From contig DATCTV010000023.1 in NCBI GenBank assembly GCA_036567785.1, positions 62,001 through 126,000 of the forward strand: 64,000 nucleotides of DNA, in the 5' to 3' direction. Source of the stretch: Desulfomonilia bacterium. Its GTDB lineage: Bacteria; Desulfobacterota; Desulfomonilia; UBA1062. The notes under the pieces were generated by a model. That model was not told the DNA's origin. It worked only from the letters and a program-made list of their open reading frames with translations, and did not search any database. The position numbers and the translations under genes were made by a program. Positions 59,790-64,000 of this stretch are shown here, piece after piece (within the stretch, counting starts at the first letter, position 1; each line of letters begins with the position of its first letter).

Positions 59790-59873
59790 AATTCGAGTTT
59801 CTTGTGTACAGTTGTTGCTGAGAAGAAATTTTTTACCTGTTCAAGCCGGGCATTATTTTTGATGGAGGATGTT

Positions 59874-61259
59874 ATGGAAAAGGGCTCTCAATTTCCGCCG
59901 GACATTACTGAAAACAGCCTGTCTGAAAAAATTTCCCTTGGAATGAAGGTCGGCTATGGAATAGGCGATTTCGCATGCAACATCGTCTTTCAGACCATCA
60001 CTCTATATCTTGTATATTTTTTCACGGACGTCTTCATGATAGGTGCAACAGTAGCCGGAAGTATCTTTTTCACAGCCAAAATCTGGAACGCCGTATGCGA
60101 CCCGACCATGGGCTTCATTACGGACAGGACTCATTCAAGATGGGGCAAGAACAGACCTTTTCTGCTTTTCGGGGCTATCCCCCTGGGATTAGCTTTCTTC
60201 CTTATATTCCTATCCCCCCAGATTCCTTTATTCTGGCGATCTATCTATGCACTGGTGACATTCCTTGTCTTCTCCGCGTGTTATTCGGTGGTTAACATAC
60301 CCTACGGCTCGCTTACCGCCAGCATTACCATGGACGGCAATGAACGTTCGACTCTGACGGGCATCCGTATGGCCTGCGCCATTCTGGGAACACTTGCAAC
60401 AGCCGGGGCGACCAAACCTGTCATCGCCATGTTTTCAAGTGAGGTAACAGGTTTCAGGGTAATAGGCGCAGTATTCGGGGGCATTTGCGTTCTGGTCCTT
60501 CTTACGACGTTCGCCACCGTGAAAGAGTGCATAACCCCTCCATCCGAAGAGAAAAAGTCATTCAGGGAAGACCTGAAGATGGTATCGAAAAACAGTCCCT
60601 TCATATTGCTCTCAATCTCGACCATACTGCAGATGGTCGCACTTAATCTCGTTGCGATCATGATCAACTACTACTTCAAGTACAATCTCGGAAGAGAATC
60701 CGACATACCGATCGCGTTCATGTGCATGTTCGTGATTGCCTTTCTTTGCATGCCATTCTGGGTATTCATGACAAAGAAATTCGCCAAGAAAAACGTTCTT
60801 GCAGCAGGCACCGGCCTGCTCGCCTTTGTGACGCTCATGCTATTCTTTATCAATAATCCAGACAGAGGGCTCATTTTCGGACTGTTCATAGTAGCGGGTA
60901 TCGGCCTGTCCACACTCTATCTCTGCCCCTGGGCCATGATCCCGGATACGGTGGAATACTCGCAGTGGAAAACAGGGCTAAGACGTGAAGGCATACTCTA
61001 CGGCTTCTTCAATTTTGCATTCAAGTTCTCCTCGGCGTTTGCCGGCTTCGCAGTGGGGCTGGGGCTTGATCTTTTCAGGTATGTTCCGAATATAAAACAG
61101 CAGGCCATAACCCTTTTCGGGATCAAGCTGCTGATGTCAGTCATCCCCTGTATTTTTATAGCAGCAGGCATAATCATCATCCTGTTCTATCCCATAGATG
61201 AGACAATGCACAGAAAAATGCTCAAAGATATTCAGATCGGGGGACAATGCGGGGGATAA
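59874..61259 (+). CDS. GPH-type sugar/hexuronide:cation symporter (MFS)
   Basis: This 461-residue transporter has 12 membrane segments of the glycoside-pentoside-hexuronide family. Family motifs are KVGYGIGDFACNIVFQ, ICNAVCDPTMG-like KIWNAVCDPTMGFITDRTHS, RWGKNRPFLLFG, and PDTVEYSQWKTGLRREG before helix 10. It imports a sugar or uronic acid with H+ or Na+. ATG 59874 was chosen because GGAGG lies 5 bases upstream; earlier in-frame ATGs have none. The next genes encode an inositol-degradation-like module, so an inositol or uronate is a likely cargo; this is inference from position. Confidence 0.9.
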   Translation: MEKGSQFPPDITENSLSEKISLGMKVGYGIGDFACNIVFQTITLYLVYFFTDVFMIGATVAGSIFFTAKIWNAVCDPTMGFITDRTHSRWGKNRPFLLFGAIPLGLAFFLIFLSPQIPLFWRSIYALVTFLVFSACYSVVNIPYGSLTASITMDGNERSTLTGIRMACAILGTLATAGATKPVIAMFSSEVTGFRVIGAVFGGICVLVLLTTFATVKECITPPSEEKKSFREDLKMVSKNSPFILLSISTILQMVALNLVAIMINYYFKYNLGRESDIPIAFMCMFVIAFLCMPFWVFMTKKFAKKNVLAAGTGLLAFVTLMLFFINNPDRGLIFGLFIVAGIGLSTLYLCPWAMIPDTVEYSQWKTGLRREGILYGFFNFAFKFSSAFAGFAVGLGLDLFRYVPNIKQQAITLFGIKLLMSVIPCIFIAAGIIIILFYPIDETMHRKMLKDIQIGGQCGG

Positions 61260-61288
61260 AAAGCATTTTAAATTTAATCAGAAAATTA

Positions 61289-61318
61289 TTGATAATTGAA
61301 TCATGGCGACATTATAAT
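61289..61318 (+). promoter_or_regulatory. Promoter of the creatininase-dehydrogenase-epimerase operon
   Basis: TTGATA (61289-61294) and a perfect TATAAT (61313-61318) are separated by 18 bases, about 60 bases before the ATG at 61378. An inverted repeat AATTAT-TG-ATAATT (61284-61297) covers the -35 box and may be an operator. This suggests that the three downstream genes can be expressed apart from the symporter. Confidence 0.65.
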
Positions 61319-61377
61319 AGGTTGAATTCACAAAGATTATACTGAAAAACTATCGAAAATGAATAAGGAGGTCCGAA

Positions 61378-62343
61378 ATGGGGAAATGGAAGATACCGCC
61401 CGATGGCGGTCATCTGGATCTGGCGACAGGCATTTATTTCCAGAATATGACCGGCAGGGAAATCGAACAGAGGCTAAAGACAAACGATCTCATAATCATT
61501 CCCGTAGGGAGTACTGAAAATCACGGTCCTCATGCATGTGCAGGAGAGGACACGTTCCTGCTCACAAGAATAGCCGAGCAGGTGGCGCTTGCAACCGGCT
61601 GCACCGTGGCTCAGCCGGTCTGGTATGGATCGCACCCGTTCAACCATCTGGGAATGCCCGGCACCATAGTGGTCCCCGAAGAAGACCTGGCAGCTTATCT
61701 TCGCGCAATAATAGCAGGTTTCTGGAACGCGGGGTTCAGAAAGCAGATATTCATCAACGGCCATGCGCAGGACTATGTCATACCGATGGCTATCCACCAG
61801 TTCGGAAAGAAATATCAGGTGCCCGCAGTGATAGCCTATCTCAACTGGTGGTTTTCTATCAGACCGCATATTAGAGACAAGGCGCACGGCGGGCCTTTCG
61901 AAACACCTTTCGTTCATGCCGACGAATGTGAGACGTCCTTTTCCCTGGCGCTCTTCCCTGAGATGATCAAGATGAAAGACGCAGTCGATACGAAGGGAGA
62001 GATGTACATCAAGGACGGTATCGTCGATAAGTCAGGACTGGCCTACGGCCATGCCATGAGGTTTTATGACCATGTAGGACTGACAGGGATGGAGGTGCTG
62101 TGCACACCGGAAGGCGTTGTCGGCAAGAGCACGCTTGCATCCGCCGACAAGGCCAGGCCCGGCGTGGAAGCGGCCATGGATTATCTTGAGGATCTCATAA
62201 ATGAAATAATGGGCAGGTTCCCGGCGGGCCAGCTGCCTCCGATTGAGAAGATGACGCAAAGACCGAAAGAGCAAATCGAATCGGTCATAAAAGGACCGAG
62301 GAACGGCGGCGCGCATATCTATACAATAAGCTACCCGACCTGA
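61378..62343 (+). CDS. iolN: Creatininase-family hydrolase, 3-dehydro-scyllo-inosose hydrolase (IolN)-like
   Basis: This 321-residue metal-dependent amidohydrolase-fold enzyme has the creatininase signature: PVGSTENHGPHACAGEDTF (Glu47, His49, Asp58), NGHAQD (His129) and VHADECETS (His180, Glu183). The N-terminus MGKWKIPPDGGHLDLATGIY resembles the IolN group, which in Thermotoga maritima opens the diketo-inositol ring to 5-keto-L-gluconate. The next genes are a zinc dehydrogenase and a TIM-barrel epimerase, the same set of families as in that pathway. AAGGAGG precedes the ATG. Other creatininase-family hydrolases remain possible. Confidence 0.78.
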   Translation: MGKWKIPPDGGHLDLATGIYFQNMTGREIEQRLKTNDLIIIPVGSTENHGPHACAGEDTFLLTRIAEQVALATGCTVAQPVWYGSHPFNHLGMPGTIVVPEEDLAAYLRAIIAGFWNAGFRKQIFINGHAQDYVIPMAIHQFGKKYQVPAVIAYLNWWFSIRPHIRDKAHGGPFETPFVHADECETSFSLALFPEMIKMKDAVDTKGEMYIKDGIVDKSGLAYGHAMRFYDHVGLTGMEVLCTPEGVVGKSTLASADKARPGVEAAMDYLEDLINEIMGRFPAGQLPPIEKMTQRPKEQIESVIKGPRNGGAHIYTISYPT

Positions 62344-62358
62344 CGAGGAGAACGAATA

Positions 62359-63561
62359 ATGGAGACTTATATAAAAGGGGAGAAGGATTACGTTGAAGGA
62401 AAGACAATAAAAGCGGCTGTCATGGTCGAGCCCGGCAGAATGGAGGTCCGGCAGCTGCCATGGCCGAAACTTGAAAGAGGCGCGCTGATACTGAAGATGC
62501 GCATGTCCGGCATATGCGGGACAGACAAGCACGCCTTCAGGGGCGGAGAGGAAAGAATACTGTACGGAGGCACCGAGGCTGAACAGGAGATGGCATATCC
62601 GGCAGTACATGGACATGAGAACGTGGGCGAGATAGTGGAGATGTATCCCGAAGATAAGAACCTTATCGAGTATCACGGGGGCGAACTCAGGATCGGAGAC
62701 AGGGTCACGATGTGCCCGAATGTTGTGTGCAGAAACTGCTGGTACTGCAGGCATATATTCGCATACCCGTTCTGTGCCAAGAACACGACCATCGGCCTTT
62801 CTTATCCGAGCAATGTACATCCGTATGTGGCGGGCGGATGGGCCGAATACATGTATGTTCCGAAAGGTGCGTGGGTCTATAAGGTGCCTGAAGGAATGCC
62901 TGATGAATTCGGGGCCATGGCCGAGATATTCGTGGTAACTTCGACGCTTGACAGGGCCAAGGAGTTCTCGAGAATCGAATCAAGAGGTTTCGGGTTTGCC
63001 GATACGGTCGTAATCCAGGGAGGCGGTGCCATGGGCCTCATGCACATAGCCAAGGCAAGGATGCTCGGTGCGGGAAAAATAATACTGGTGGATCCCTCAA
63101 AGAAAAAGCTCGAAATAGCAAAGGAATTCGGGGCCGATTATGGAATCGACATAAGCGTGACCACTAAGGAAGAACGGGTGAATATCGTCAAGGACCTCAC
63201 GGACGGAAGAGGGGCGGATGTCGTTGTGGAAGTGGTCGGAACTGCTGAATGTGTGAAGGAAGGCCTCGAGATGACCAGAAGGGGCGGCACATATATAGAG
63301 ACTGGGAATTTCGTGGACTGCGGCGAGGTGGCGCTCAATATCCACAGGGACATTGCGGCTAAGAATGTTCTACTCATTGGCAACACCAATCACCCCCATA
63401 CAGGTTATTATCAGCACATGTACATGATGCAGAAGTACTCAAAGGAGTATCCTTTCGAGAAGCTCATAACTCACAGGTTCAGGCTGGATGACGCTCAGAA
63501 GGCAGTCGAGACCTCGCTTGAGACCGACCCTCTGAAGGTGATTTTCGACATGACAATGTGA
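62359..63561 (+). CDS. iolM: Zinc-dependent alcohol dehydrogenase, scyllo-inosose dehydrogenase (IolM)-like
   Basis: This 400-residue medium-chain dehydrogenase has catalytic zinc ligands in SGICGTDKHAF (Cys53) and HGHENVGE (His86, Glu87), a structural-zinc lobe CRNCWYCRHIFAYPFC, and a Rossmann motif VVIQGGGAMGLMH for NAD. The length and the unusual N-terminal extension (METYIKGEKDYVEGK) fit the IolM type, which oxidises 2-keto-myo-inositol in Thermotoga. A related threonine or sorbitol dehydrogenase is the main alternative. AGGAG precedes the ATG, 15 bases after the hydrolase stop. It is part of the same operon. Confidence 0.75.
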   Translation: METYIKGEKDYVEGKTIKAAVMVEPGRMEVRQLPWPKLERGALILKMRMSGICGTDKHAFRGGEERILYGGTEAEQEMAYPAVHGHENVGEIVEMYPEDKNLIEYHGGELRIGDRVTMCPNVVCRNCWYCRHIFAYPFCAKNTTIGLSYPSNVHPYVAGGWAEYMYVPKGAWVYKVPEGMPDEFGAMAEIFVVTSTLDRAKEFSRIESRGFGFADTVVIQGGGAMGLMHIAKARMLGAGKIILVDPSKKKLEIAKEFGADYGIDISVTTKEERVNIVKDLTDGRGADVVVEVVGTAECVKEGLEMTRRGGTYIETGNFVDCGEVALNIHRDIAAKNVLLIGNTNHPHTGYYQHMYMMQKYSKEYPFEKLITHRFRLDDAQKAVETSLETDPLKVIFDMTM

Positions 63562-63579
63562 CGGAAAAAGCAAGAAATT

Positions 63580-64000
63580 ATGTTTGATTTGAGCGTCAGC
63601 CTTTCGCCAATAAAGTCGCCGTTCAGTCCGCTGCTCTTTTCCGGTGACCTTGAAGAAGGTCTAATGAATGTCAGCAGGCTGGGCTACAGCGGCGTGGACC
63701 TGAGCCTGCTGGATTCGGCAGTCCTTGACCAGGACTGGATAATCGGGAAGACCGGAAGCCTGAATCTGAAAGTCTACACAATCGCCACGGGCCAGACATA
63801 TTACAATGACGGATATTCCCTTTACAGCGCCGAAGCGGACAAACGTGAAAAGGCTGTTGCCAGGATAAATTCCCATATCGATTTTGCCTCCAGGCTTGGC
63901 GCCATGGTAATAATCGGAGGCGTACGGGGAAAGATAACGGCCGGAAGCGAGCACGAAAGGCTCAGTCTGGAACAGGAAGGCAGGCAGGCCATATGTCAAT
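63580..64000 (+). CDS. Sugar isomerase/epimerase TIM-barrel protein, 3' end outside window (IolO-like)
   Basis: The first 140 residues are visible. They begin MFDLSVSLSPIKSP and show the xylose-isomerase-like TIM-barrel pattern: GYSGVDLSLLD (strand 2), LKVYTIATGQTYY, INSHIDFASRLGAMVIIGGV and RGKITAGSEHERL. In the Thermotoga inositol pathway this place is taken by IolO, the epimerase from 5-keto-L-gluconate to D-tagaturonate. The start at ATG 63580, 18 bases after the dehydrogenase stop, has only a weak ribosome site. The gene continues beyond the window. Confidence 0.72.
   Translation, partial: MFDLSVSLSPIKSPFSPLLFSGDLEEGLMNVSRLGYSGVDLSLLDSAVLDQDWIIGKTGSLNLKVYTIATGQTYYNDGYSLYSAEADKREKAVARINSHIDFASRLGAMVIIGGVRGKITAGSEHERLSLEQEGRQAICQ

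Follow-up and report, generated by a model that had tools for sequence, protein, structure and literature searches.

Does the end of this stretch of DNA encode the Thermotoga-type breakdown of inositol, with the enzymes IolN, IolM and IolO, in a bacterium that does not belong to the Thermotogae? The window, by which we mean the whole 64,000-nucleotide stretch analysed here, covers positions 62001-126000 of contig C23 in a 3.96-Mb draft genome (G000:C23:62001-126000), and the contig itself extends to 133391. An earlier note on the window had described a creatininase-family hydrolase, a zinc dehydrogenase of about 400 residues and a TIM-barrel epimerase in succession, and the open reading frames, their order, plus strand, families and coordinates are all correct. 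The hydrolase gene iolN (321 aa, PF02633) lies at 61378-62343. It is followed at 62359-63561 by the gene for a zinc-dependent medium-chain dehydrogenase (400 aa, PF08240 and PF00107), which occupies the IolM position, and at 63580-64398 by the gene for an iolO-like epimerase (PF01261). The window ends at 64000; reading on past that point gives the whole third gene, of 272 aa (L002:7580-8398). The two intergenic gaps measure 15 and 18 bp.

The three genes had been placed under one promoter, and a sigma-70-like site (TTGATA-18-TATAAT, 11 of 12 consensus bases) is indeed present upstream of iolN at 61289-61318 on the plus strand, as a consensus match only. The ATG at 61378 has a ribosome-binding site ahead of it (aaggagg, about 61366-61372). 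Because a hairpin with a 9-bp stem sits directly 3' of the third gene (L002:8405-8429), the arrangement suggests a three-gene unit. Sites of this kind are no rarity here, though, with 15 found and 8.9 expected (fold z -2.3).

The hydrolase gives the clearest family assignment. Its score against the IolN profile NF041098 is 509.5 bits over the full profile (E 2.6e-153), about twice the curated cut-off of 245, and four metal-site residues (E35, H37, D46 and H117, in alignment numbering of the first row) are invariant in seven homologs. The hydrolase is thus IolN, the predicted 3-dehydro-scyllo-inosose hydrolase, and its earlier description as a TM0413-type protein stands.

Similarly, the epimerase had been proposed as a relative of TM0416. 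Among all models, its best is the IolO profile NF041099 (5-keto-L-gluconate epimerase), which it matches over the full length at 264.7 bits, narrowly missing the curated cut-off of 300. The nearest solved protein is TM0416 itself (2zvr, 8.4e-52; the next is at 5.3e-26), and the catalytic and metal motifs of TM0416 (EPxNRYE, FHMNIEE and HxADSNR) align with the window's protein. In a tree in which several forks are weakly supported, the epimerase nests with the IolOs of loci that carry the same kind of dehydrogenase, inside a larger group that also takes in TM0416 and the IolOs found at IolM loci. By model, solved match and tree, then, we classify it as IolO-like.

The dehydrogenase is where the identification as IolM (TM0412) fails. 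Medium-chain dehydrogenases share one common fold, and the simple reading, a plain IolN-IolM-IolO set with an orthologous IolM, can point to the position between IolN and IolO, the length of about 400 aa and the zinc dehydrogenase domains. Against the IolM profile NF041097 (scyllo-inosose 3-dehydrogenase), however, the protein scores 139.4 bits where the curated cut-off is 450. Its nearest solved relative, at 148 bits, is 1vj0, which we take to be the zinc alcohol dehydrogenase TM0436; the protein is nearer to this than to TM0412, on a long branch with an SH-aLRT of only 85. The Thermotoga scyllo-inosose 3-dehydrogenase, 3ip1 (PMC10033563), is matched at 96 bits, and the typical IolM of a Bathyarchaeota cluster (L065) matches 3ip1 at 417 bits. 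A tree of 78 proteins sets a 19-row clade that includes the window's protein (SH-aLRT 100) apart from a 21-row IolM/TM0412 clade (SH-aLRT 99). Score, best solved relative and tree together rule out orthology, so that only function could still coincide, and we give the plain set hardly any probability. A search of the whole genome with NF041097 also gave no IolM over the cut-off. We use DH-A as a working name for this dehydrogenase and its clade. The earlier note had said that it would fall if dehydrogenase and hydrolase grouped with other families; the dehydrogenase lies outside IolM, and the hydrolase remains IolN.

DH-A should nevertheless be an active, NAD-dependent enzyme. We expect this because the catalytic zinc ligands (C53, H86, E87 and E189), the structural cysteines (C124, C127, C130 and C139) and, following the second Rossmann strand, an acidic residue that points to NAD (D245) are all invariant in 17 homologs. 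In a plasmid collection, the best DH-A match among five matches listed has about 32% identity, and none of the 2399 records holds one at 60% or above.

What DH-A does can be approached by comparing IolN loci from many genomes. A scan with an IolN alignment, using one genome per species, gave 308 relatives, and the best 79 loci were compared; these are from the 80 loci most similar to the query, a sample that favours DH-A types and includes many incomplete metagenome-assembled genomes (MAGs). A DH-A homolog (55-88% identical) occurs in 19 of the 79, and in 17 of these it begins <200 bp downstream of IolN; a TM0412-type IolM occurs in 20. No locus has both, where 4.8 would be expected (Fisher p 0.0016, uncorrected for relatedness). 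IolO is found near IolN in 13/19 loci with DH-A, 19/20 with IolM and 10/40 others. On the IolN tree, which is well supported, the dehydrogenase partner must have changed at least six times. For example, two DH-A loci (L104 and L125) are placed inside a group of IolM-bearing Sporomusaceae, and, in the other direction, an IolM locus (L069) lies inside a DH-A group as sister to a DH-A locus (L068) with 99-100% support. The IolO of L069 is likewise found among those of DH-A loci. Only four DH-A/IolM pairs are phylogenetically independent, too few for significance. The most economical interpretation is that DH-A and IolM can replace one another as the partner of IolN. Since DH-A follows IolN, excludes IolM and swaps with it on the IolN tree, DH-A most likely carries out IolM's step, possibly for another inositol isomer.

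A DH-A cluster (L051) and an IolM cluster (L089) occur together in a single MAG, G421, so DH-A may not be a simple IolM substitute. The same MAG has a second IolN copy at L051:2259-3254. It also counts against an inositol role for DH-A that IolG is over its cut-off in only 4/18 sampled DH-A genomes, in addition to the genome studied here, though IolM genomes do little better (5/13) and many of the genomes are incomplete MAGs. Three DH-A loci also encode LarA-family (lactate racemase) proteins, possibly sugar-acid epimerases (L051:791-2044, L058:7684-8976 and L125:3467-4927). A DUF6282 protein and a transaldolase-like protein (L053:5988-7040 and L053:7874-8956) recur in the DH-A loci of other genomes and are absent from the window's locus.

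The genes on either side of the module can be considered next. Upstream on the plus strand, as the earlier note had it, is a GPH:cation symporter (TIGR00792, 370.9 bits; cut-off 231). Its open reading frame runs from a TTG at 59802 to 61259, with a likelier start at ATG 59874 preceded by GGAGG, and the gap to iolN is 118 bp. Linked to the module by proximity only, it is a candidate transporter. The hairpin is followed, all beyond the end of the window, by a second TIM-barrel protein (L002:8491-9330), a Gfo/Idh/MocA dehydrogenase (L002:9279-10529, likelier start ATG 9345), a second GPH symporter (L002:10678-12144) and a HAF-repeat protein. The Gfo/Idh/MocA protein retains its Gfo/Idh domains and scores 127 bits against the IolG model, below the cut-off of 355, and is therefore no standard IolG. 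The second TIM-barrel protein, which has a long branch and passes no equivalog model, was likewise rejected as a second IolO. This downstream unit, too, is tied to the module by proximity only.

The remaining steps were expected beyond the window, and most of them are in the genome, on other contigs. Two proteins exceed the IolG cut-off of 355, one on C4 (457.5 bits) and one on C34 (422.6 bits), neither in the module cluster. A tagaturonate reductase is encoded on C13 (582 bits, cut-off 359), a member of the altronate/galactarate-dehydratase family on C28 (exact substrate unsure), a KDPG aldolase with an adjacent KDG-kinase-like protein on C37 and a mannonate dehydratase on C7. The tagaturonate-fructuronate epimerase UxaE has no match in this genome, in a search for which Thermotoga maritima served as a positive control. 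Because UxaE is absent, the lower route is probably unlike that of Thermotoga and leads from tagaturonate through altronate and KDG to KDPG. The expectation of IolG and uronate genes therefore holds for two IolGs and most tagaturonate-degrading genes, and does not hold for UxaE or for an IolG next to the module. The KDPG aldolase cluster on C37 (L148:8561-14103) also contains a NIPA-like membrane protein, a BKACE protein, an SDR and a Gfo dehydrogenase, and is perhaps another sugar-acid route.

The route had also been described as one without the Bacillus enzymes. This is true of the module's own locus, L002, where there are no IolD or IolE equivalogs; the genome as a whole, however, has a Bacillus-type operon on C4, in which IolG is accompanied by IolD (930 bits, cut-off 715), IolE (412 bits, cut-off 290) and an IolB-like protein. 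The organism would thus appear to have two inositol routes, which would leave room for isomer specialisation. The operon (L160:8106-16329) further includes a tartrate/isopropylmalate-dehydrogenase-like protein and a GAPDH/PGK pair, and IolC, IolJ and IolA are not among the genes scanned there. Inositol clusters of both the IolN and the IolD/E type repeatedly carry a GAPDH of archaeal type (type II), in most cases adjoined by an archaeal-like PGK: L160:8106-10486 (the C4 copy, minus strand), L058:3603-5908, L102:14241-16135, L128:14124-15662 and L125:1238-2275. The GAPDHs are 64-71% identical, and the pair perhaps serves sugar-acid activation and reduction.

We think it reasonably probable that these three genes together form the ring-opening module of an inositol route of the Thermotoga type, in which another dehydrogenase has taken the place of IolM. 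In such a pathway, with the direction of flux presumed, a Gfo/Idh-family dehydrogenase (the IolG of C4 or C34, or possibly the downstream Gfo protein) would convert inositol to inosose, and DH-A, using NAD and zinc, would oxidise a second ring carbon to give a presumed diketo-inositol. IolN would then hydrolyse a ring C-C bond to yield 5-keto-L-gluconate, which the IolO-like enzyme would epimerise to D-tagaturonate. A UxaB-type reductase would produce altronate; dehydration would then give KDG, which would be phosphorylated for cleavage by KDPG aldolase. For the later part there is a precedent in Luteolibacter, where a 5-keto-L-gluconate epimerase is followed by conversion of tagaturonate to altronate and KDG (PMC12632266).

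The same genes could also serve another inositol isomer or derivative (D-chiro-, scyllo- or pinitol-like). DH-A would then differ from IolM in the inosose or the carbon that it oxidises, and myo-inositol would be left to the iolD/E/G operon. The presence of that operon in the same genome is in keeping with this idea, as are the two cluster types side by side in G421 and the variation of transporters by locus, GPH here and ribose-type ABC elsewhere. Yet both cluster types use the same IolN and IolO families, and the exchange between L069 and L068 on one IolN background argues for the same chemistry; we regard specialisation of this kind as a real but rather unlikely possibility. Less likely again, and in our judgement improbable, is a pathway for an aldose or aldonate such as L-glucose or L-galactose, in which the Gfo protein would make a lactone, IolN would act as lactonase, DH-A would form 5-keto-L-gluconate and the IolO-like protein would feed tagaturonate. 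Luteolibacter has an established route of this sort, which passes through 5-keto-L-gluconate and a C-4 epimerase (PMC12632266), and the downstream Gfo/Idh and second TIM-barrel proteins would fit it. What speaks against it is an IolN at twice its equivalog cut-off, in a syntenic slot common to IolM clusters, along with a terminator-like hairpin between the Gfo unit and the three genes and the lack of that Gfo unit in the closest modules, L050 and L104.

If the preferred reading, inositol ring opening with a substituted dehydrogenase, is taken further, a separate zinc dehydrogenase branch may have been recruited, perhaps repeatedly, as the second ring oxidase of the IolN route, maybe with another position or isomer specificity, so that one hydrolase could serve several stereoisomers through dehydrogenase exchange. 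We put this forward tentatively, as an idea with somewhat less than even chances.

As to distribution, the module is indeed outside Thermotogae, as claimed, but this is not unusual: the 308 IolN relatives extend across many phyla including archaea (the best 79 come from Chloroflexota, Bacillota, Planctomycetota, Spirochaetota, archaea and others), and the idea that IolN is rare outside Thermotogae was rejected. Closer to home it is sparse. All 23 other genomes from the same family lack IolN, and the module was therefore probably acquired or sporadically kept. In a sample of 395 genomes from the phylum, IolN exceeds 500 bits in seven, this one included, and in none of the other six is IolM or DH-A next to it. 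The modules most like this one occur in MAGs from other phyla (L050, 88% for IolN and for DH-A), and acquisition by transfer is likely. At the loci L141-L147, the neighbours of an IolN over the cut-off are sorbitol-dehydrogenase-like genes; most of these loci also have a GntR regulator close by, and one has Gfo proteins. Since these loci are without IolM or IolO, IolN may serve more than one pathway.

The open-access literature that we searched yielded no description of the DH-A variant. Annotation based on IolM would miss the route in the many anaerobes that have DH-A instead, of which Pelolinea submarina is a cultured example. That DH-A and IolM can trade places beside one conserved hydrolase is a direct, testable case of enzyme-family replacement, and the pair offers a way to learn which inositol isomers each dehydrogenase serves.

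The inositol pathway of Thermotoga maritima reportedly uses IolG, IolM, IolN and IolO, encoded in the operon TM0411-TM0416, and is said to go back to Rodionova and colleagues in 2013. Common to that system and this one are the IolN family, the IolO family and an adjoining zinc dehydrogenase. Here, however, the dehydrogenase is of another clade, the operon is without IolG or IolK, and the genome is without UxaE and has iolD/E/G in addition; the transporter is a GPH symporter instead of the ABC transporter InoEFGK. Nor is the N-M-O order Thermotoga's own, as had been supposed, since the Thermotoga numbering puts TM0412 (M) before TM0413 (N). The IolM-type clusters outside Thermotogae (Pelosinus, Lucifera, Propionispora and Bathyarchaeota MAGs; L095, L102, L112 and L065) have compact IolN and IolO genes as here, but with a TM0412-type IolM and usually a second, shorter zinc dehydrogenase. 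More alike are the DH-A clusters of Pelolinea submarina (L093) and of Anaerolineae, Spirochaetales and Atribacteria MAGs, in which DH-A comes straight after IolN, mostly with IolO; unlike the window, they feature GntR regulators, ribose-type ABC transporters, DUF6282 and transaldolase-like genes. The L-glucose/L-galactose pathway of Luteolibacter LG18 (PMC12632266) shares the 5-keto-L-gluconate epimerase and the path from D-tagaturonate through altronate and KDG to KDPG, but has no ring-opening hydrolase and starts from aldoses. Set against these systems, and with its chemistry and substrate as we infer them, the module is a well-preserved IolN/IolO set with a substituted dehydrogenase, a variant and not a plain copy of the Thermotoga-type pathway.
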